Assembly: GCA_903891095.1 (NCBI GenBank)
Contig: CAITDI010000046.1
Coordinates: 1-64,000 of the forward strand
DNA: 64,000 nt
Origin: an uncultured bacterium
GTDB lineage: Bacteria; Planctomycetota; Phycisphaerae; Phycisphaerales; SM1A02
Direction: 5' to 3'
How positions within the stretch are numbered: position 1 is the stretch's first letter; each line of letters begins with the position of its first letter. The notes below the pieces were generated by a model, which saw only the letters and a program-made list of their open reading frames with translations, was not told the DNA's origin and did not search any database. Position numbers and translations under genes: made by a program. Below are positions 2,435 to 11,710 of this stretch, piece by piece.

Positions 2435-2462
2435 CAGACTTGCAGGCAGACTTACAGGCAGG
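2435..2462. repeat. 12-bp tandem repeat over a stop codon
   Basis: Two 12-mers, cagactt(g/a)cagg, with a partial third copy. The TAA stop of the minus-strand Cys-rich protein lies inside the second unit. Confidence 0.8.
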
Positions 2463-4281
2463 GGCCCCACGCATTCAGCAGCGCTGCGACGTCGAGCGCG
2501 TTGGTGGTGCCGTCGCCGTTGATGTCGCCGCTGCTCGAACCCCAGCCATTGAGCAGGATGGTGATGTCCTGCGCGTCGACGCCGCCGCTGTGATTGAGGT
2601 CGGCCGGACAGGCTGGCGCGCACGGCACAACCTGGCCAACGCCAATGTGCAGCACCGTGTCGCCGCCCTGAAGCGAGTCGGATCCCTTGTTGAACTTTGG
2701 CCCGACGCGAATGAGGTATCGAACGCCGCACTCGGCGACGATCGAAAGGCGGCTCGCGCTGTTTCCGGCGCAGATGGTTCCGTTGTCATTGCACGCGATC
2801 TGCGTCAGTGCGCCGCAACTGCCCGTGTACACGCCGATGAGCGTGTCGTACCAAGAGCCGCAGGTCCCGATGTCGATGACGCCCGAGACATTGGCGGTGT
2901 ACGCAAACCAGACATCACGCGCGTAGCCAGCTGGCGCGCACGGCGCCGCAAGCGCGCCAAGCTCATTGCCCGACCGCATGGTGTTGAAGGGCGTGTCGCC
3001 GACGGCGACCGCAATCGCGTTGGCGCAGAGATCGTTGGCGGGCGCCGATGTCACGCAAAGCGCCGCGGACGACGCGACGCAGCCGGTGTCCCAGGTCGAG
3101 TCGCAGCAGAAGGGGTCGTTCGAGCACACGGCAGCGCAACAGGTCGCCGTGCGGCAGCCGCCCGTCGTGTGCGGCACGAAGCAAGACGGACCATTCGGCG
3201 AGCAGGCCACGCAGCTCTGCGTGACGATCAGCTTGACGTTGTAGCGATTGGCGCTGAGGCACGAGATGTCGCCGCCACCAAGCTGCGGATACGCGCCGCC
3301 CGACACAACGATGCGGTACGCGCCAGCAGGAACGCACGTTGGCGTGGACCCGACCTCGACGCAAAGGCTTGTAGAGACATGCGCCAAGCTCGACGCGATC
3401 GGCGCGCAGTTGGAGTCGGCCACCAGCGCCGCCCACGCCTGCGGCGAGGATGCGAACGTGAGCTGCACCTTGGCGATGCCGTCGCCGTCGGTGTCAGGAA
3501 CGATCACGCGGTACACGTCGACGTCCGGCCCATTGATGGAGCTCGGCGGCCTACCAAGCCTGCCGGAGATCTGGATGTTGGCCGTCATCGCTTCAGGAGC
3601 GCCGCCCGTCGTGCCGTAGCACGGGTCGTTCGTCCGCTGGTCGCAGTCCTCGACCTCGGCAACCGCATTGTCGTCGGGCGTTGGGTAGCAGCCCGAGACG
3701 CAGGTCTGCTCCGCTGCGTAGACGCAGAAGAAGTCCCAAGCCGACTCGCAGCACGTGGGGTCGATCGTGCACACCGCGGTGCAGCAGGTCGCGTCGTTGC
3801 ACGCGCCTTGCGAGTGGGTCGTGTAGCAGTCGCCGCTCGCCTGTCCGCAGGTCCCAGGCGTGCCAGGGCACGCGAAGCCGGCGTACTGCACGCAGGTCAG
3901 GTCCCATGTGGTCTGGCAGCAGAACGCGTCGATCGCACAGACAGCGTTGCAGCACGATGCCGTGTCGCACGCGGGGTTCGCGTGAGGCGCGTAGCAGCTG
4001 CCACTCGCAGCCGAACCGCAGTAGCCCGCGCAGGAGATGTTGGCGAGCGCGACGCAGCCAGCGTCCCAGCTCGAGAAGCAGCAGGTCGGGTCGGCCGCAC
4101 AGACGCTCGTGCAGCACGCTTGGCTATCGCAGCCTCCGCCAGAGTGGACGGCGATGCAGGATTGCGTGCTGACGCACTGCGCCTGCGCGGCGGTCGGCAG
4201 CAGGGCGGCCACCGCGATGGCAAGAACGACGACAAGGAAACGAAAGCGTGCTGCGGGCATGACTAGGGTCAAAATACGCAC
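2452..4281 (-). CDS. Secreted Cys-rich repeat protein with dockerin-like C-terminus
   Basis: A 609-aa exported protein with a signal peptide (FLVVVLAIAVAALLPTAAQA, then QC). Three tandem modules of about 45 residues follow, each reading C-x-x-x-H...C-x3-CC-x2-VC-x2-D-x2-CC-x4-WD-x2-C. After a beta-rich spacer there is a fourth module. Next is a beta-sandwich module (NDLCANAIAV...DVWFAYTAN...YDTLIGVYTG...CNDN) of the kind common in planctomycete exported proteins. The C-terminus has two dockerin-like Ca-binding repeats, DLNHSGGVDAQDITILLNGW and DINGDGTTNALDVAALLNAW, ending GPCL. GTG 4281 has GAGG 4 nt upstream. ATG 4260 is the alternative and lacks one. The function is unknown; many disulfides and surface or extracellular attachment are inferred. 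Confidence 0.85.
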   Translation of the reverse strand: MRILTLVMPAARFRFLVVVLAIAVAALLPTAAQAQCVSTQSCIAVHSGGGCDSQACCTSVCAADPTCCFSSWDAGCVALANISCAGYCGSAASGSCYAPHANPACDTASCCNAVCAIDAFCCQTTWDLTCVQYAGFACPGTPGTCGQASGDCYTTHSQGACNDATCCTAVCTIDPTCCESAWDFFCVYAAEQTCVSGCYPTPDDNAVAEVEDCDQRTNDPCYGTTGGAPEAMTANIQISGRLGRPPSSINGPDVDVYRVIVPDTDGDGIAKVQLTFASSPQAWAALVADSNCAPIASSLAHVSTSLCVEVGSTPTCVPAGAYRIVVSGGAYPQLGGGDISCLSANRYNVKLIVTQSCVACSPNGPSCFVPHTTGGCRTATCCAAVCSNDPFCCDSTWDTGCVASSAALCVTSAPANDLCANAIAVAVGDTPFNTMRSGNELGALAAPCAPAGYARDVWFAYTANVSGVIDIGTCGSWYDTLIGVYTGSCGALTQIACNDNGTICAGNSASRLSIVAECGVRYLIRVGPKFNKGSDSLQGGDTVLHIGVGQVVPCAPACPADLNHSGGVDAQDITILLNGWGSSSGDINGDGTTNALDVAALLNAWGPCL

Positions 4282-4351
4282 GGCACCTCGCGAGGTCGGA
4301 TCGTGCTTTCAGTTTTCCGCGGAATCGAGACCAACGATGTTCGAGCGTCCG

Positions 4352-4390
4352 CAAAGCAGAGCCCCCCGACCCTTGCGGATCGGGGGGCTC
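4352..4390 (-). terminator. Rho-independent terminator downstream of the 959-aa exported protein
   Basis: An 11-bp perfect stem (gagccccccga, 4359-4369, with tcggggggctc, 4380-4390) lies between the two Cys-rich genes. On the minus strand it is followed by TCTGCTTTG, a weak T-run. Confidence 0.6.
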
Positions 4391-4454
4391 GATGGAACTC
4401 ATTGCCAGCGATGACTGAGAGGCAATCCTCTCAAGCACCCGCTGTATCGAACAC

Positions 4455-7334
4455 TTACGGGCACGCGCCCCAGCTGCTCAGCAGGACAGTGATGTCCTGC
4501 GGACCAGTGATGCCGTCGCCGGTGAGGTCGGCGGCCGGGGTACCCCAGGCGCCGAGCAGGACGGTGATGTCCTGCGGACCCACGACGCCGTCGTGCGTGA
4601 AGTCAGCCGGGCACGACGGAGCGCAGGTGCCGCTCGGCGTGACCGTGATCTGACCCGTGCCGAACACCGCAGCGCTGAACGAACCAACCGACAGGTAGTA
4701 GGTCTTGCCGCAGACCGGGGTGAAGTTCACCTCGGACTGGAGCGTACCCGCGCAAGTCGCCGGCGCATCGGCATCGTCGTCGCAAGCGACGAGCGCGCCG
4801 GTGCAGGAGTCCTCGAACACCGCGATCTTGGTGTCGAAGAGCGATCCGCAGAGCGAGATCTTGAGGTTGGCATTGCCCGTGGCGACATACTTGAACCAGA
4901 GGTCGTTGTACACGTTGCCGCTGCCGAACTTGGTGCACGCCGGGGTGGTGCCCGTCGCACCGAGGGTGCTGAACGGAGTCACGCCTGAAGTGATGGTCAC
5001 CGCGGCAGCGCACTCGTCGTTCACCGGCGGGGGAACCTGGCAGTTGCTGCAGGCAGCGATGGCCGCGTTCGCGCAAACGTTGTCCCACTGCGTGTCGCAG
5101 CAGAACGCGTCAGCGGCGCAGATCTGCGAGCAGCAAGCAGCGTCGGCGCAGAACGGAGTCGCGTGACCCGTGCAGCAGTCGCCCGTACCTGCGTCGCCGC
5201 AGCTCGGAGCGTCGCCGACGAAGGTGATGACGAGGTCGGTCGCACCCGTCGCACCGGCGAAGCCGCCGACGCGAATGGTGTACGTCGTGCCAGCCGTCAT
5301 CGGGACGATCAGCTTGGAAGCAAACGCCGTGCAGCCAGCGCCGTCGTCGTTGCAGCCGAGGAGGACGCCGCCCTGTTCGGGGCAGTTGTCATAGGCCTCG
5401 ACGCCCGTATCGAACGGAGCCGGACCCGAGCAAGTCTGGAGCTCGTAGTCGCCGGTCTGGGTCGCCGTGAACTTGAACCAAACGTCCTTCGTGAACGGAG
5501 CTGCAGAGCAGGTCGCGGTCGCGATGTCCGTCGAAGCAAACGTGTTGTCGAACGGATTCGCGCCTTCGACAGCGACCTGCGCGTTGGCGCAGAGGTCGTT
5601 CGGCGGAGCAGCCGCATCGCAGGCCACGCCGGTCACCTCGAGGGTGTAGTCGTTGCCAACCGGTCCACCGCAGGGGTAGCCCGAGAAGACGCTCGGGAGA
5701 GCGACGATGTAGTAGCTACCCGGAGCGAGGCAGACGGTCGAGGTGCCAGGGCACTGACCAGCGGTCACGCTACCCGTGATGATGCCACCGCACGCGGTGT
5801 CGACCATCGCAGCGAAGCAGTTAAGGCTCGAGCGGATCGTGATGGTGACCGACGTTCCCTGCGCGATGGTCAGGGTGTACCAGTCGGTATCGCGCGTACC
5901 GCCGTCAGCCCAGAACGAGCCGGCGACCGTCTGACCGACCGAGATCGGCTCGGACGGGCTACCACCGGCTGCGTTGTTGCAGCCACCGTTGGCATCTTCG
6001 CCGCAGAGCTCGACCTCGGCAGCGTTCGACTGCGCGAGTTCGCACGGGACGAAGGGCGAGATGTCGACCTGGCCAGAGCCAGAGTCGGTCGAGCCATAGC
6101 CACCGACCACGATGATGTACGGGACGCCAGCGAGCAGTTCGACCGCTTCAATGCGGCTCGAGAATGCAGCGCAGGTGTTCGGACCGTCGTCGTTGCAACC
6201 GAGCACGCCGTCAGCCGGCGAGCAGGTGTTCATGACCGCGAGACGCGTGTCGAACGGAGCGAGATTGCAGGTCGACACCGAGTACAGGCCATCGGCCGTC
6301 GGGGTGAAGCGCAGGAACGTCGCGTTGTAGATGAGGTCGTCGCCGAACGGACCCGGGTCGCACGCGCCGGTCAGGTCGACGATATCCGTCGCGCCGACCG
6401 TCGTGAACGAGTTGAGTCCCGCCACGGCGTCGGGCGCGGTCTTGCAACCGCTCGAGCCACCGCCGCCGTTGAGGCTGACGGTGAGGGTGCCGGTGCCGGC
6501 CGCGGTTCCGGCCGCATAGCCACCGACCGCCACGAAGTACGTGGTGCCCGCAGTGAGGTCCACAGCAGCGATCACGCTGGTGAAGCCGGTGCAGCCAGCT
6601 CCGTCGTCGTTGCAAGCGAGCACGCCGTTGGCGGGATCGCAGCTGTTCATGACGGCGATCTTGGTGTCGAACGTCGCAGTGTTGCACATCGAGAATCGGT
6701 ACGAGCCCGACTCAGCCGGCGTGAAGCTGTAGAAATTCGCGTTGTAGATCTCCTGCGTGAACTGCATCGTGCACTGACCAGTGACATCAACGATCGTGCC
6801 CGAGGCCGTGTTGCTGAACTGGTTGTCGCCGAGCGAGAGCACCGTCGGCGAGCCGCAGCCGCCGCCACCACCACCGCCGCCACCGCCACCGGACACCGTC
6901 AGCGTGCCAGCGCCGCCGTTGGTCGCTGCGTAGCCGCCGATCACAACCTTGCAGGTCTGGCCCGCGGCCAGGGTGGCAGCCGTGGAGCTCGCGAGACCGC
7001 ACGAGTCATCGTTGCAGGCGAGAACGCCGTTCACGGGATCGCAGTCATTGAGGATCGCAATACGCGTGTCCCAGGTCGCGCCGCAAAGGCTGAAGTTGTA
7101 CGAACCCGCCTCAGTCGCGGTGAACGTGAAGAACGTCACCTTGTAGATGCTGTGCGCAAGCGCGCAGCCAGTCGCGGCAGGCATCGCAAAGGTGCCGGTG
7201 GCGTTGGTGGTGTCGAACGCGTTTGCGCCGACCACCGCCGCGGGGGCCGTCGCGCAATCCTGCGCGGAGGCGACACAAGCGACGAAGGCCGAAGCCACCG
7301 CGCTACAAACAAATGTCCAATTCTTCGCTCGCAT
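4455..7334 (-). CDS. Large secreted multi-module protein with dockerin-like C-terminus
   Basis: This 959-aa exported protein starts at ATG 7334 behind AAGGAGA at good spacing. The signal peptide runs from MRAKNWTF to about SAFVACVASAQ. The body is a string of about six beta-sandwich modules of roughly 130 residues with shared wording: ...FDTTNATG..., Y-x-F-x-F-TATEAGSY, F-S-x-C, (F)DT-x-IA-V-x-N-x-CDP, GVLACNDD. They resemble bacterial pre-peptidase C-terminal domains. A run of 11 or so Gly separates modules 1 and 2. One Cys module (CC-x2-IC-x2-D-x2-CC-x3-WD-x2-C) near residue 770 is shared with the neighbour at 2452-4281. Two dockerin-like repeats (DFTHDGVVGPQDITVLLGAW, DLTGDGITGPQDITVLLSSW) end in GACP. 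No catalytic motif was seen. A structural, adhesive or scaffold role is inferred. Confidence 0.87.
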   Translation of the reverse strand: MRAKNWTFVCSAVASAFVACVASAQDCATAPAAVVGANAFDTTNATGTFAMPAATGCALAHSIYKVTFFTFTATEAGSYNFSLCGATWDTRIAILNDCDPVNGVLACNDDSCGLASSTAATLAAGQTCKVVIGGYAATNGGAGTLTVSGGGGGGGGGGGCGSPTVLSLGDNQFSNTASGTIVDVTGQCTMQFTQEIYNANFYSFTPAESGSYRFSMCNTATFDTKIAVMNSCDPANGVLACNDDGAGCTGFTSVIAAVDLTAGTTYFVAVGGYAAGTAAGTGTLTVSLNGGGGSSGCKTAPDAVAGLNSFTTVGATDIVDLTGACDPGPFGDDLIYNATFLRFTPTADGLYSVSTCNLAPFDTRLAVMNTCSPADGVLGCNDDGPNTCAAFSSRIEAVELLAGVPYIIVVGGYGSTDSGSGQVDISPFVPCELAQSNAAEVELCGEDANGGCNNAAGGSPSEPISVGQTVAGSFWADGGTRDTDWYTLTIAQGTSVTITIRSSLNCFAAMVDTACGGIITGSVTAGQCPGTSTVCLAPGSYYIVALPSVFSGYPCGGPVGNDYTLEVTGVACDAAAPPNDLCANAQVAVEGANPFDNTFASTDIATATCSAAPFTKDVWFKFTATQTGDYELQTCSGPAPFDTGVEAYDNCPEQGGVLLGCNDDGAGCTAFASKLIVPMTAGTTYTIRVGGFAGATGATDLVITFVGDAPSCGDAGTGDCCTGHATPFCADAACCSQICAADAFCCDTQWDNVCANAAIAACSNCQVPPPVNDECAAAVTITSGVTPFSTLGATGTTPACTKFGSGNVYNDLWFKYVATGNANLKISLCGSLFDTKIAVFEDSCTGALVACDDDADAPATCAGTLQSEVNFTPVCGKTYYLSVGSFSAAVFGTGQITVTPSGTCAPSCPADFTHDGVVGPQDITVLLGAWGTPAADLTGDGITGPQDITVLLSSWGACP

Positions 7335-7741
7335 CTGAGTCTCCTTAAAGGAAGTACAACACGTTCTCGAACGCCGATTTTGAATGGCGCTCGCGCCTGC
7401 CAGCACCATTCGACTCGCCGACACACGCTCTCGAGAGTCCTCTCGAGAAGGCCTCTCTTCAAAGCATGCGTGCAGCACGAAGAGACAATCCTCACGCAGG
7501 ATTGATCAAAGTGCGTGTGCAAAGATAACTCGCTGTGGCGGCTTGCCAAGAACGAACATGACGGAAGGAGGCAACTCGTAAGTTTCGATGGACCCGACCC
7601 CAAGGCGGGTCCGAGTCGTGCACGTCGTCCGTCGATTTGGCTACAGTCCGCCGTTCGCCGCAGGGCGGACGGACGTGTTGTCGGACCAAAGGCGGTCCGG
7701 GTCTGTGCGCCCGAGCACCAAGCAACTTCCCGAGAGAAACC
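7335..7741. other. 407-bp intergenic region with three GC hairpins
   Basis: No convincing gene was found. The left part carries the ribosome-binding site of the minus-strand exported protein and a repeated ctctcgaga motif (7428-7451). The right part, ahead of the peroxiredoxin, has three short perfect stems at 7590-7612, 7646-7670 and 7682-7699. Two related 20-bp blocks, gcgggtccgagtcgtgca and gcggtccgggtctgtgcg, suggest an old duplication. It probably holds divergent promoters, but none could be assigned securely. Confidence 0.5.
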
Positions 7742-8212
7742 ATGTCGCTTCCCGTTGGATCCATCGCTCCGTCCTTCAAGCTCCCATGCAAGCCCGGCGA
7801 AGAGGTCGACGTGGGCGCCTCGCTCGGACGCGAGAAGGTCCTGATCCTGTTCTTCCCTAACGCCTACAGCTCGGTCTGCACGGAGGAGATGTGCCATCTG
7901 CGCGACAACTGGGCTGACTGGGGCGCGCTCGGCTGCAAGATCTTCGGCGTCTCGATCGACAGCCCGTTCGTGACCGACAAGTTCCGCGCCGACCTCGGCG
8001 TGCCGTTCCCGATCCTTTCCGACTTCAACAAGACGGTGAGCGCGAGCTACGACGCGCTGCACGCGGATCTCATGGGGCTCAAGGGCGTCACCAAGCGCGC
8101 CGCGTACGTCGTCGGCAGCGACGGCAAGATCACCTACGCGTGGGAAGCGGAGATCCCCAAGACCCAAGTCGACTTCGGCGCGATCAAGGCTGCCGTCGCC
8201 TCGACGCGCTGA
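7742..8212 (+). CDS. Peroxiredoxin, BCP type
   Basis: A 156-aa thiol peroxidase of the thioredoxin fold that reduces H2O2 and organic hydroperoxides in the cytosol. The peroxidatic Cys is Cys46 in AYSSVCTEEMC. A second Cys five residues on (Cys51) is the arrangement of alpha2-helix atypical 2-Cys BCP enzymes. The usual P-x3-T-x2-C motif is altered: Ser occupies the Thr position, giving FPNAYSSVC. Further family marks are FGVSIDSPF, FPILSDFNK and the C-terminal RAAYVVGSDGKI. ATG 7742 follows a GAGAGAAACC purine stretch and gives the standard N-terminus SLPVGSIAPSF. It sits alone on the plus strand between minus-strand exported-protein genes. The next gene ends 5 bp beyond its stop. Confidence 0.9.
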   Translation: MSLPVGSIAPSFKLPCKPGEEVDVGASLGREKVLILFFPNAYSSVCTEEMCHLRDNWADWGALGCKIFGVSIDSPFVTDKFRADLGVPFPILSDFNKTVSASYDALHADLMGLKGVTKRAAYVVGSDGKITYAWEAEIPKTQVDFGAIKAAVASTR

Positions 8213-8217
8213 GCGCG

Positions 8218-9903
8218 TCAGCCTGCCTTCTTCTGAACATCCTTCTTAAGAACATCCACGGCGCCGTCGGTCTGCTTGACCGGCGGCGCTGTCGTTTCTG
8301 CCCTGAGCGGAACCTTTAGCATCAGAACATGCTGTCGACGTGCCTTGTCGCCGCCTTCGAACACCAGCAGCGTTTGGCCGTCGAGCGTCGTGGAGCACGA
8401 GCTGCCCGCTGCGCCGCCCCAGAGAACACGGGCAACGCTCCAGGTCGCGCCGAGGTCGGTCGATGTGAGCTCGCGCATCGGATTGGGAAGGGCGCCTTCT
8501 GGCTGCGCAATCGAGAGCGTCCCGTTTGGCGCAAGCAGGGCGGTTCCAGCAAGTGCGCCGCCTTCGTACTTGCTCGCAACGGTGAGAGCGCCATCATGAA
8601 GCACGCTCCGTTCCGTGCTTCGAGGAGTGCGGATCAGCGTGTTGGAAGCGTTCAGCCACACTGGCTCGCAGCCGATGTTTGCCGCAATGTTCGCGCCAAC
8701 GTTCGCACCAACGCCCGCGCCGATGTCGCGCGCGGTCCACTTGCCGTCACGGCCGCGCTCAATCGCGCATGCGTGCGGTTCGCGATTCGAGATCCGCGTG
8801 GCAAAGGCAACTGGATTGCCCTCGGCGGTTGATCGAATGGCGCCAGTCACAAGCTGAAGCGGCGCTCCGCTCGAATCGACTTCGGCGACCTTCTGAAAGT
8901 GGGCGCCGTCGCTGGATTCAAAGACATCGAGCTTCTCCACGAGCCGCTGCGGCGAGGGCGCCTGGACGATCAGCATCCACGCGCCGCCCGTGGAGTCCGC
9001 GCGCCAGCCAAGGAGCGCAAGGTCGGGCTGCACGCCGCCGAGATCAACGACGCTCGGCACGGCATCGACGTTGATGCCACGCACGTGGAGTTCGCTCTTG
9101 GAGGAGCCGTCGGCGGCCGTGCTGACAGCAATTGCTCCGACGAGCACGCGCTTGCCGTCAGACGCGACGGTGGGGTCGCGAAACTCATCGATGTCGCCAT
9201 CCGCGCTGGTGAACAGCGCAATGGGCCGAGGCTGCAGCGAATGGTCACCCTCCACCGAGCAGGCTTGGACTCGCATCACGCCGCCGCCGAGGTCGAACCC
9301 GACGCGACCAAGCGCGATGTCCTTGACGCCAATCGTGCCCATCTCGACGTCATTGATCCGAACGGCCAGTACGCCGTTGGCGCGAGCGATCTCGATCGAG
9401 ACCGGCGCCCCTGGGCGAGCCGTTGAAGGCCGCGAGTTCTCGAGCGGGAACTTGCCGCCGCCGAACAGACGGCCAGTGAGCACCGCGCCCCATTCGGGAT
9501 CGTCGAGCACGACACTGCCGCCGTCGAACGCGATCCCCGCGCCACGGCCGGTCGGCTCGTCGAACTCAATCGTCGCCGTCAGCTTGAAGTCGCCTTTGCC
9601 GATGCAGACCGTCGAATGCTGCCGCAGCCCTCTGCGTGCAGGGGAGACGTCGGTCGAATCGGTCGTGACGTGCCCTTGCGCTGCCTCGAGGCTGGTTCCA
9701 CGGAGGTCGGCGACATCGGCGGGCGCGCCAGGGCGCACGAGGACCGTCTCCTCACCAGCGAGCGGTGCAGCCGAGGAACGCGCACATGGGCTTGGGGTTG
9801 GGCTTGCGGCTGGGCTTGCGGTTGGGCTTGCGGTTGGGCTCGCCGTGGCACAGGCCACAAGAACGGTCAACGCGAGAACGATGGCGGATGTGCAGCGCGG
9901 CAT
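8218..9903 (-). CDS. BNR/sialidase-like lipoprotein
   Basis: A 561-aa lipoprotein. The lipobox is LVAC with Cys18, followed by a low-complexity ASPTASPTASPAASPTPSP spacer encoded by a 12-bp tandem repeat. Residues from about 45 to 210 look like a concanavalin-type jelly roll (FKLTATIEFDEPTGRGAG, VSIEIARANGVLAVRINDVE). The rest reads like a beta-propeller: RDPTVASDGKRVLVGAIAV, DLALLGWRADSTGG, and an Asp-box, S-T-D-L-G-A-T-W, near residue 480. Asp-boxes mark the BNR fold of sialidases and related glycan-binding proteins, but the Arg triad of true sialidases was not identified. ATG 9903 is the start nearest the signal peptide, and ATG 9915 is an equally possible start. An outer-membrane or periplasmic carbohydrate-related role is inferred. 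Confidence 0.75.
   Translation of the reverse strand: MPRCTSAIVLALTVLVACATASPTASPTASPAASPTPSPCARSSAAPLAGEETVLVRPGAPADVADLRGTSLEAAQGHVTTDSTDVSPARRGLRQHSTVCIGKGDFKLTATIEFDEPTGRGAGIAFDGGSVVLDDPEWGAVLTGRLFGGGKFPLENSRPSTARPGAPVSIEIARANGVLAVRINDVEMGTIGVKDIALGRVGFDLGGGVMRVQACSVEGDHSLQPRPIALFTSADGDIDEFRDPTVASDGKRVLVGAIAVSTAADGSSKSELHVRGINVDAVPSVVDLGGVQPDLALLGWRADSTGGAWMLIVQAPSPQRLVEKLDVFESSDGAHFQKVAEVDSSGAPLQLVTGAIRSTAEGNPVAFATRISNREPHACAIERGRDGKWTARDIGAGVGANVGANIAANIGCEPVWLNASNTLIRTPRSTERSVLHDGALTVASKYEGGALAGTALLAPNGTLSIAQPEGALPNPMRELTSTDLGATWSVARVLWGGAAGSSCSTTLDGQTLLVFEGGDKARRQHVLMLKVPLRAETTAPPVKQTDGAVDVLKKDVQKKAG
8675..8722. repeat. Degenerate 12-bp tandem repeat, 4 copies
   Basis: Four diverged 12-mers of the form a(t/c)gttcgc(g/a)cca. 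They encode a GANVGANIAANIG stretch in the BNR-like lipoprotein. Confidence 0.7.
9789..9848. repeat. 12-bp tandem repeat, 5 copies
   Basis: Five 12-mers, ggcttgcggttg, of which two are identical and the outer ones diverged. They encode the SPTA/SPAA spacer after the lipobox. Confidence 0.9.
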
Positions 9904-9978
9904 CTGACGCAACATACCCGAGCACAGCGTGGCGGTTGAGCCGCCCACGACCGCGCCGCGAGCCGGTGCCCAGCCGGC

Positions 9979-10947
9979 TTACGGATTCCAGGCGTTGAGG
10001 ATCTGAGCGATGTCCGAAGCGTCGACGAAGCCGTTGCCGTCCACGTCGCCGGCGGTGCCAGTGGTACCGAAGGAATTCAGCACCAGTGCGAGGTCGGTCG
10101 CGTTGACGCGCCCATCCTGCGAGAGATCGCCGAGGATGACGTTCACAAACACGCGCTGCGTGTCGCTCGTGCTTCGGCCGCACTCGTCGGTCACGGTCCA
10201 GGTGATCGTGACCGGGCTGTTGATGCGGTCATAGCCCGCGCTGATGTTGGTCTCGCCGTCGCTTCGAACGAAGCTCAGTCGGAGCACCGGCCCGCAGCCA
10301 GAGGCCGTCACCACGCCGACGCTGGTAAACAAGGTCATGGTGTTGTACGCAGGAGTGCCGACGACGTCCGGCGGAACAGTGATCTTCGGCGCTGCGCCGA
10401 CGTTGATCTCGTTCAAGGCCGCAAGTGCGGGCAAGATTGCCGTGCCTTGCGAGTCCGTGAGCAGGTTCCGAATCTTCGTGTTGTGACGGAACTGGATCAG
10501 CTCATCCGGGGTGCAATCGGCGGGCACGCGCAGAACGGTAAAGCGAAGTCGCTTGGCGACCACGTTGCCCGTCGTGGGCTGGTTGGTCGGGGAAATACCC
10601 ACGGCCATGTCGATGAAACCATCGACCGGGCTCGCCGAGAAGTAGATCGGCAAGTCAAATGGCTGGTCGCCGGGCTCAGCTCCCACAAAGTGGAGCACCG
10701 AGGCGTCGTACTGAAGCGAACTCTGAACGCCCACGATATTCGGGGCGTTGGGCCCAACGCGAACATCGACGATGAGATCCTGACCGACCTCTGCGCACCG
10801 ATTGGTCTTCAGCTGAAGCACCGAGGGCGTTCCGCCCGCGAATGCAGAGGCACTTGCAAGCAGCGCCAGGCAGCAAGACATGCAGCCAGTCATGCAGCCA
10901 GTCATGAAGCGAGGAAACATATGCGATCGCCATCCAGATTGAAGCAT
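9979..10947 (-). CDS. Secreted cohesin-like / HYR-like / dockerin-like protein
   Basis: A 322-aa exported protein. The signal peptide holds an unusual MTGCMTGC duplication before CLALLASASAFA. Residues of about 45-185 resemble a cohesin-type beta-sandwich (VGQDLIVDVRV, IVGVQSSLQYDASVLHFVGA, AKRLRFTVLR). A HYR-like Ig domain comes next (PKITVPPDVV, VTITWTVTDECGRS). Two dockerin-like repeats end the protein: DLSQDGRVNATDLALVLNSF and DVDGNGFVDASDIAQILNAW, then NP. ATG 10947 lies 1 bp after the stop of the upstream gene and behind AGGA, so translational coupling is likely. The two proteins share architecture, suggesting a duplicated pair. Carrying cohesin-like and dockerin-like modules on one chain could allow polymer-like assembly; this is inference. 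Confidence 0.82.
   Translation of the reverse strand: MLQSGWRSHMFPRFMTGCMTGCMSCCLALLASASAFAGGTPSVLQLKTNRCAEVGQDLIVDVRVGPNAPNIVGVQSSLQYDASVLHFVGAEPGDQPFDLPIYFSASPVDGFIDMAVGISPTNQPTTGNVVAKRLRFTVLRVPADCTPDELIQFRHNTKIRNLLTDSQGTAILPALAALNEINVGAAPKITVPPDVVGTPAYNTMTLFTSVGVVTASGCGPVLRLSFVRSDGETNISAGYDRINSPVTITWTVTDECGRSTSDTQRVFVNVILGDLSQDGRVNATDLALVLNSFGTTGTAGDVDGNGFVDASDIAQILNAWNP
10879..10902. repeat. 12-bp perfect tandem repeat in a signal peptide
   Basis: Two identical copies of catgcagccagt. They produce the MTGCMTGC duplication inside the signal peptide of the cohesin-like protein. Confidence 0.9.
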
Positions 10948-10948
10948 G

Positions 10949-11710
10949 TCACGTTCCTGGGCAGGGGCCCCAGTTAGAGAGGATCATTGAGAGATCGTTG
11001 GCGTTGACGGTGCCGTTTCCGTCAAGGTCGGCCGAACCAGGGCCACCCCATTGGCTCAGCAGTGCCGCCATGTCCTGCGCGTTGACCGCGCCGTTGCGAT
11101 CGATGTCGCCGACGCACGGAGGAGTCTGAACGATCGTCGCAGGATGAACCGCGCCGAGCACGTTCAAGCCCGGGACCGTGCCGTCGTAGACGATGGTGTC
11201 GGTCGGTGTGAAGATGTTGAGCGTCGGGAGAATGCTCACCGACGCAGACGTGAAGGCGGTCTTGACCTTGAATCGGAACGTCGTGACCTGCACGCCCGCA
11301 GCCGAGACCTGGACAGGATTGCCGAGCGGCGCAAGCGCGTAGTACAGCGCGTCGCCGTCGGTCGGCGGAGCGGCTTCATTGATGCCGGTGTAGTCGGACG
11401 CGGGCGTCGGAAAGTACGAACTGAGCAGCGGGACCGATCCAGTGGTGGTGAGCCCCATCAGCTGCAGTTGCTTTGGATTCCACTTGATGATGCAGTCGAT
11501 GGCGACGAAGCTCGTGCCCGTGAACGACTGGTTCACCTGGTTTGCGCGCAGCTTGACGTCGATGATCTGGTTGACCGCCACGGGAGCCGTCGGACCCACG
11601 AGCGTCAGATCGATCACGGACTGCGCGAACGATGCCGATGTCGCCACCGCACAGGCGAAGCCTGCGGCCAGAGCGCGCGCGATGACGATGGTCCGGTTTC
11701 CAAAAAGCAT
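10949..11710 (-). CDS. Secreted cohesin-like plus dockerin-like protein
   Basis: A 253-aa exported protein and first gene of a two-gene unit with the coupled 322-aa protein downstream. The signal peptide is MLFGNRTIVIARALAAGFAC through TSASFAQ. The body resembles a cohesin-type beta-sandwich: APVAVNQIIDVKLRA, FVAIDCIIKWNPKQLQL, VTTFRFKVKTA. Two dockerin-like repeats follow (DIDRNGAVNAQDMAALLSQW, DLDGNGTVNANDLSMILSNW) ending GPCPGT, the same WGPC ending as the large Cys-rich proteins nearby. ATG 11710 is chosen because it begins a clean signal peptide behind a purine-rich GGGGAAGAG. The longer in-frame extension upstream has atypical composition. It is likely secreted and Ca-stabilised; the binding partner is unknown. 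Confidence 0.83.
   Translation of the reverse strand: MLFGNRTIVIARALAAGFACAVATSASFAQSVIDLTLVGPTAPVAVNQIIDVKLRANQVNQSFTGTSFVAIDCIIKWNPKQLQLMGLTTTGSVPLLSSYFPTPASDYTGINEAAPPTDGDALYYALAPLGNPVQVSAAGVQVTTFRFKVKTAFTSASVSILPTLNIFTPTDTIVYDGTVPGLNVLGAVHPATIVQTPPCVGDIDRNGAVNAQDMAALLSQWGGPGSADLDGNGTVNANDLSMILSNWGPCPGT

Follow-up and report, generated by a model that had tools for sequence, protein, structure and literature searches.

The closest described system is the planctosome, a hypothetical enzyme-gathering assembly of the freshwater planctomycete family Nemodlikiaceae, whose published model comprises an anchor with LTD, P-domain and TSP3 domains and a cohesin, an adaptor of the composition cohesin-HYR-dockerin, and dockerin-bearing M12B and M14 peptidases (Andrei 2019, PMC6461901). 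The proposal is based solely on domain content, and the paper presents no assembled surface complex for any member (PMC6461901). A cohesin and a dockerin likewise share one chain in the clostridial adaptor scaffoldins (Acetivibrio ScaA/ScaB, C. thermocellum CipA). Clasps of a non-covalent kind have been described between the termini of dockerins (PMC4728124). In dDoc_0689, the double dockerin of a C. thermocellum S8 protease, the first dockerin has a clasp according to a review, which also mentions possible anchoring to a cell-bound scaffoldin.

The locus described here is a real and conserved planctosome-like adaptor locus, a variant of the hypothesised kind and not a new kind of system. It is located in a window of 64,000 nucleotides (the whole stretch of DNA that was analysed, contig C46) from a genome of 3.6 Mb in 131 contigs. 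Five minus-strand open reading frames, designated P1 to P5, occupy positions 2452-11707; export signals were read by inspection in all five, and the C-terminal module is a dockerin in four of them (P1, P2, P4 and P5). The features of the block are as follows, where "clasped" refers to the putative cysteine clasp considered below.

2452..4281, minus strand: P1, with four 10-Cys modules, a CNDD-type domain and a clasped dockerin
4030-4173, 3868-4020, 3700-3849 and 3055-3204, minus strand: 10-Cys modules of P1
2455-2610, minus strand: clasped dockerin of P1
4455..7478, minus strand: P2, with repeated GBD_T9SS_assoc/PPC-like domains (Pfam), one Cys module and a clasped dockerin; the likely start is near 7334
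5049-5201, minus strand: Cys module of P2
4458-4613, minus strand: clasped dockerin of P2
7637..8212, plus strand: peroxiredoxin (AhpC-TSA) between P2 and P3 (Pfam PF00578, E 7.6e-30)
8218..9948, minus strand: P3, a lipoprotein-like exported protein with a lipobox, LVAC, read from the sequence
9979..10947, minus strand: P4, with a signal peptide, a cohesin-fold domain, an HYR-like domain and an unclasped dockerin
~10387-10827, ~10138-10386 and 9982-10134, minus strand: cohesin-fold domain, HYR-like domain and dockerin of P4
10949..11707, minus strand: P5, with a signal peptide (residues 1-29), a divergent cohesin-fold domain and a clasped dockerin
11138-11620, minus strand: cohesin-fold domain of P5 (~residues 30-190)
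10958-11116, minus strand: C-terminal dockerin of P5

P3 has no dockerin and no Pfam domain above the cut-off. The peroxiredoxin gene is outside the adaptor system, and it is also kept in the corresponding neighborhood of relatives (orthologues in L128 and L133). The stop codon of P5 and the ATG of P4 are separated by 1 bp (TGA-c-ATG), in agreement with the coupling originally predicted for the two small genes; the start of P4 is uncertain and a later ATG may be used.

The order P1-P2-P3-P4-P5 is kept in relatives G008, G009 and G013 and in part in G005 and G011, and the flanking AMP-ligase and methyltransferase genes are also kept in G008 and G013. Conservation of the full order indicates that the block is more than a chance grouping. 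The five minus-strand exported genes of the original prediction are all present, and the gene order, which it proposed as a check, proved conserved; its description of the block as an island is overstated, since the genome has about 100 dockerin genes and the block holds four of them. P1 orthologues are 51-58% identical in G005, G008 and G013, and P2 orthologues 63-64% identical in G008 and G013. P3, with orthologues in L123-L127 and L131, is a conserved neighbor of P4 and P5. Orthologues of P4 were found in nine genomes, own genome included, always with P5 adjacent; none was found in G003, G011 and G015, though P5 is retained there.

We then compared the two small proteins with known cohesins. 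AlphaFold2 models, both of medium confidence, were built for P5 from 12 orthologues (pLDDT 72) and for P4 from 8 sequences (pLDDT 78). When the P5 model was compared with the PDB using Foldseek, all 50 matches listed were cohesin or cohesin-complex entries (TM 0.76 to 6kgc_A by target length), and for the P4 model the best 28 matches listed were cohesin-bearing entries (TM by target 0.71 to 3ul4_A and 0.70 to 1aoh_A), with Ig-type proteins ranking lower. The predicted combination of a cohesin-like and a dockerin-like module on one chain is therefore recovered for both P4 and P5, the dockerins by Pfam and the cohesin folds by Foldseek. At the level of sequence, P4 scores 19.6 bits against PF00963, under the Pfam cut-off of 24.1, and is matched by hhalign to the PF00963-positive adaptor cohesins of relatives (probability 98.6, E 8e-16). 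P5 gives no PF00963 match, is not recognised as a cohesin by sequence searches, and aligns weakly with the same adaptor cohesins (hhalign probability 31), so that it is a cohesin by predicted fold and not by sequence profile. Since the PF00963 cut-off is missed by both, we refer to these modelled domains as cohesin-fold domains rather than as members of the curated Cohesin family. The HYR-like domain of P4 was inferred by alignment with Pfam-detected HYR domains of relatives.

P4 resembles the planctosome adaptor in that cohesin, HYR and dockerin lie on one exported chain, the first by predicted fold and the second by homology. The models of P4 and P5 also match the cohesins of the clostridial adaptor scaffoldins. 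In contrast to those, P4 and P5 have one cohesin each and belong to an unrelated lineage; the genome contains no multi-cohesin scaffoldin that we could see, and among the Pfam families listed for the dockerin proteins in two tallies, the second giving 25 of 34 families, there is one amylase and no cellulase. In a profile search of the PDB the best sequence matches of P5 are the serine-protease dockerin entries 8x39/8x3a, presumably the same protein as dDoc_0689. That S8 protease differs in having two tandem dockerins, with a clasp that may not be a disulfide.

The dockerins of the locus were examined with two profiles. Pfam Dockerin_1 (PF00404) is above its cut-off in P1, P4 and P5, and the dockerin of P2 was found by NF041540, with a score under the cut-off of that profile. 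NF041540, which describes the GC-type dockerin, is named "dockerin domain-anchored" in NCBIfam; all four dockerins fall below its cut-off of 29 bits (P1 25.3, P2 28.3, P4 26.9, P5 25.8), and by these scores they are relatives and not full members of that family, with which they share the C-terminal position. Features of type I dockerins are present, namely two EF-hand-type calcium loops, D at positions 1 and 12, and the profile match. The two repeats are pseudo-symmetric, with 58% within a domain as against 51% for repeats of different domains (0/2000 permutations). The genome has 80 NF041540 and 91 PF00404 matches with E no greater than 0.01, corresponding to about 100 dockerin proteins, which rules out an isolated island. 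Only four cohesins are known in the genome for these dockerins, which with few exceptions form the very C-terminus of their proteins. Rare N-terminal or internal dockerins occur in L045, L148, L036 and L154.

Among 97 dockerin proteins encoded outside the window genes, many of them read over the C-terminal ~500 residues, there are five S8, at least five M12B, one M14 and one kumamolisin-type (pro-domain) peptidases, along with amylase, PhoD, arylsulfotransferase, C-type lectins, and RCC1 and FG-GAP propellers. By domain content the dockerin cargo is peptidase-rich (S8, M12B, M14), and the dockerin-bearing M12B and M14 peptidases are a further likeness to the planctosome.

The dockerins were originally described as ending in WG-x-C in three of four cases. 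The motif is indeed present in P1 (WGPC-L), P2 (WGAC-P) and P5 (WGPC-PGT) and not in P4 (WNP), but it is followed by one to three residues and so does not form the end itself. A census of 98 dockerin domains, scored with a local profile in the stretches around matches and hence smaller than the full proteome, showed that an N-terminal Cys (C-x-x-D), which precedes the first calcium-loop Asp by three residues, and the Cys of WGxC occur both in 47 domains, neither in 51 and singly in none (Fisher P ~1e-24 for a first-pass count in this genome). The pair is thus absent from about half of the dockerins of this genome, P4 included, which sets them apart from the NF041540 GC-type dockerin. Among 74 dockerins of relatives both Cys are present in 51, neither in 20 and one in three, two of which have a nearby Cys and seem to be shifts in the alignment. 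The pair is also lost jointly within orthologues: P5 of G003 and G011 has neither Cys, and the same holds for the P4 orthologues apart from that of G030, where the two are present. Because the two cysteines occur together or not at all in this genome, the simplest reading is a putative N-to-C disulfide clasp, and the perfect pairing would account for the GC-type ending in simple structural terms. WG-x-C was also considered as a binding code or as a lipid or sorting cysteine, and was rejected as such, the C-terminal Cys occurring in this genome only alongside the C-x-x-D Cys. The significance originally suggested for the motif is better explained by a clasp, given the pairing, and WG-x-C probably does not encode assembly.

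Additionally, we examined the scaffold genes with which P4 and P5 are associated. The P4/P5 pair adjoins large cohesin-HYR proteins in G001, G006 and G030. In G015 a 2228-aa protein with LTD, five P-domains and TSP3 is followed by a 526-aa cohesin, HYR and dockerin protein and then by P5, and in G003 a copy of the adaptor (59% identical to that of G015) and an anchor part (65% identical) are likewise followed by P5. The planctosome-type anchor, or part of it in G003, and the adaptor are found beside P5 in these two relatives; in the own genome, a fragmented assembly, PF01483 has no match for the P-domain. A P5-type cohesin (58-61% identical) is fused to a cohesin-HYR-EF scaffold half in L186 (G005) and L188 (G012). 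These fusion proteins of ~870-900 aa are encoded at L186:7812-10433(+) and L188:383-3079(+), with a second cohesin in the scaffold half.

The own genome encodes two further PF00963 cohesin proteins, on contigs C127 and C110, both with a cohesin, an HYR-like domain and an EF-hand C-terminus. The C127 protein has 527 aa; adjoining it (L135:1-2428, minus strand) is an RCC1-like protein with repeated DCND...NPGA-EICD motifs. The C110 protein (L136:8604-14639, minus strand) has at least 2011 aa, ends at the contig edge, and carries many short repeats before its cohesin.

We propose that P5 and P4 are exported adaptors of a planctosome-like assembly, with cohesin-fold sockets and dockerin plugs, and assign to this reading a probability of roughly 55%. 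Signal peptides would export all five proteins, and the assembly would be located at the cell surface. The cohesins of P4 and P5 would most probably take up calcium-loaded dockerin tails, both those of peptidases and those of binding proteins like P1 and P2, and the dockerins of P4 and P5 would dock onto the cohesins of the larger cohesin-HYR scaffold proteins of contigs C127 and C110. P1 and P2 would serve as binding subunits without catalytic activity, brought in by their clasped dockerins, and their architecture suggests that their Cys-rich and galactose-binding-like modules contact substrate or surface. The predicted folds, the profile match of P4, scaffold neighbors and fusions, co-inheritance, peptidase cargo and dockerin pseudo-symmetry all argue for such adaptors. 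Compared with the published planctosome, the locus additionally has the divergent P5-type cohesin, the Cys-module dockerin proteins P1 and P2, and clasped dockerins. The original remark that partners and purpose of such proteins are poorly described mostly stands, except that a planctosome hypothesis with the same domain combination has been published (PMC6461901). The conserved locus, the scaffold fusions, the co-inheritance and a divergent cohesin missed by profiles provide genetic support for the planctosome, and P4 and P5 are small proteins that make the idea testable.

Of 16 genomes of the same genus, 12 have both P5-type domains and PF00963 cohesins and four (G002, G004, G007 and G010) have neither, a pattern with a chance of 1 in 1820 under random placement and uncorrected for relatedness. 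Two of these four genomes are 93-97% complete (G004 97%), with G007 at 82% and G010 at 78%. Beyond the genus P5 seldom occurs (7 genomes among the 151 of an order sample, in five genera). Co-inheritance, the order conserved in several genomes and the scaffold fusions make it very unlikely that the modules are folded spacers without a specific partner, clustered through duplication of common exported modules, even if such modules are abundant genome-wide. The presence of both modules on one chain in P4 and in P5, and the coupling of their genes, would also fit head-to-tail polymerisation of the two proteins into a fibre or mesh. This is unlikely, however, as their dockerins differ in clasp status, P5 occurs without P4 in G003, G011 and G015, and the adjoining scaffolds suggest tiers and not a homopolymer. 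The original prediction allowed for scaffold-type or head-to-tail assembly; no evidence favors the latter, and the former is to be preferred, since in relatives these genes adjoin genes for planctosome-type scaffold proteins or are fused with them.

A possible but less favored account is that the GC-type dockerin at the C-terminus serves chiefly for surface sorting or anchoring by way of a receptor other than these cohesins, the adaptors being an optional later addition or binders of few dockerins. GC-type dockerins are found in 46 of 61 genomes and a PF00963 cohesin in only 18, and the extreme C-terminal position and the NCBIfam name are in keeping with anchoring. Dockerin counts are undiminished where PF00963 cohesins are absent (57 in G002, 71 in G004, at least 81 each in G037, G042, G046 and G050). 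The four cohesin-negative genomes of the genus and the near-complete order-mates G037, G042 and G046, in which neither a PF00963 cohesin nor P5 was found, have 31 to at least 81. From these counts, dockerins do not require cohesins of the P5 or PF00963 type, and because relatives in which no cohesin was detected are as dockerin-rich, a further receptor or role for the tails is probable. Against this account, dockerins that bind cohesins have the same pseudo-symmetric form with two repeats, and cohesins may be undercounted: P5 escapes PF00963 and P4 falls short of its cut-off, which makes hidden cohesins in the dockerin-rich relatives possible. It is because these relatives are dockerin-rich, and may hide cohesins, that we weigh the adaptor reading against the other-receptor account as we do. 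Tentatively, the two could be combined, with the putatively clasped dockerin as a general C-terminal surface tag for a non-cohesin receptor, and the P5/P4 cohesins and scaffolds as an overlay, inherited together, through which some of the tagged proteome is drawn into peptidase complexes. In dockerin-rich relatives without recognised cohesins the receptor question is now directly testable.

The remaining modules of P1 and P2 are as originally described in outline. The beta-sandwich CNDD modules were identified by Pfam as GBD_T9SS_assoc/PPC-like, and the Cys-rich module is real, in the form CC-x3-C...CC...WD...C, with four copies in P1 and one in P2. It spans ~50 residues with ten conserved Cys (C-x7-C-x3-H-x4-C-x4-CC-x3-C-x2-D-x2-CC-x3-WD-x2-C-x7-C) and has no match in Pfam or, when searched with the N-terminal part of P1, in the PDB; a PHROGs search of P1 and P2 gave no match. 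In a phylum sample of 294 genomes, matches to the module were confined to the genus of the window; a restriction to the genus was rejected, as 109 of the 121 genomes sampled from the window's family carry the module. A 994-aa protein of the own genome (L212:2010-4994, minus strand) carries 17 copies of it.
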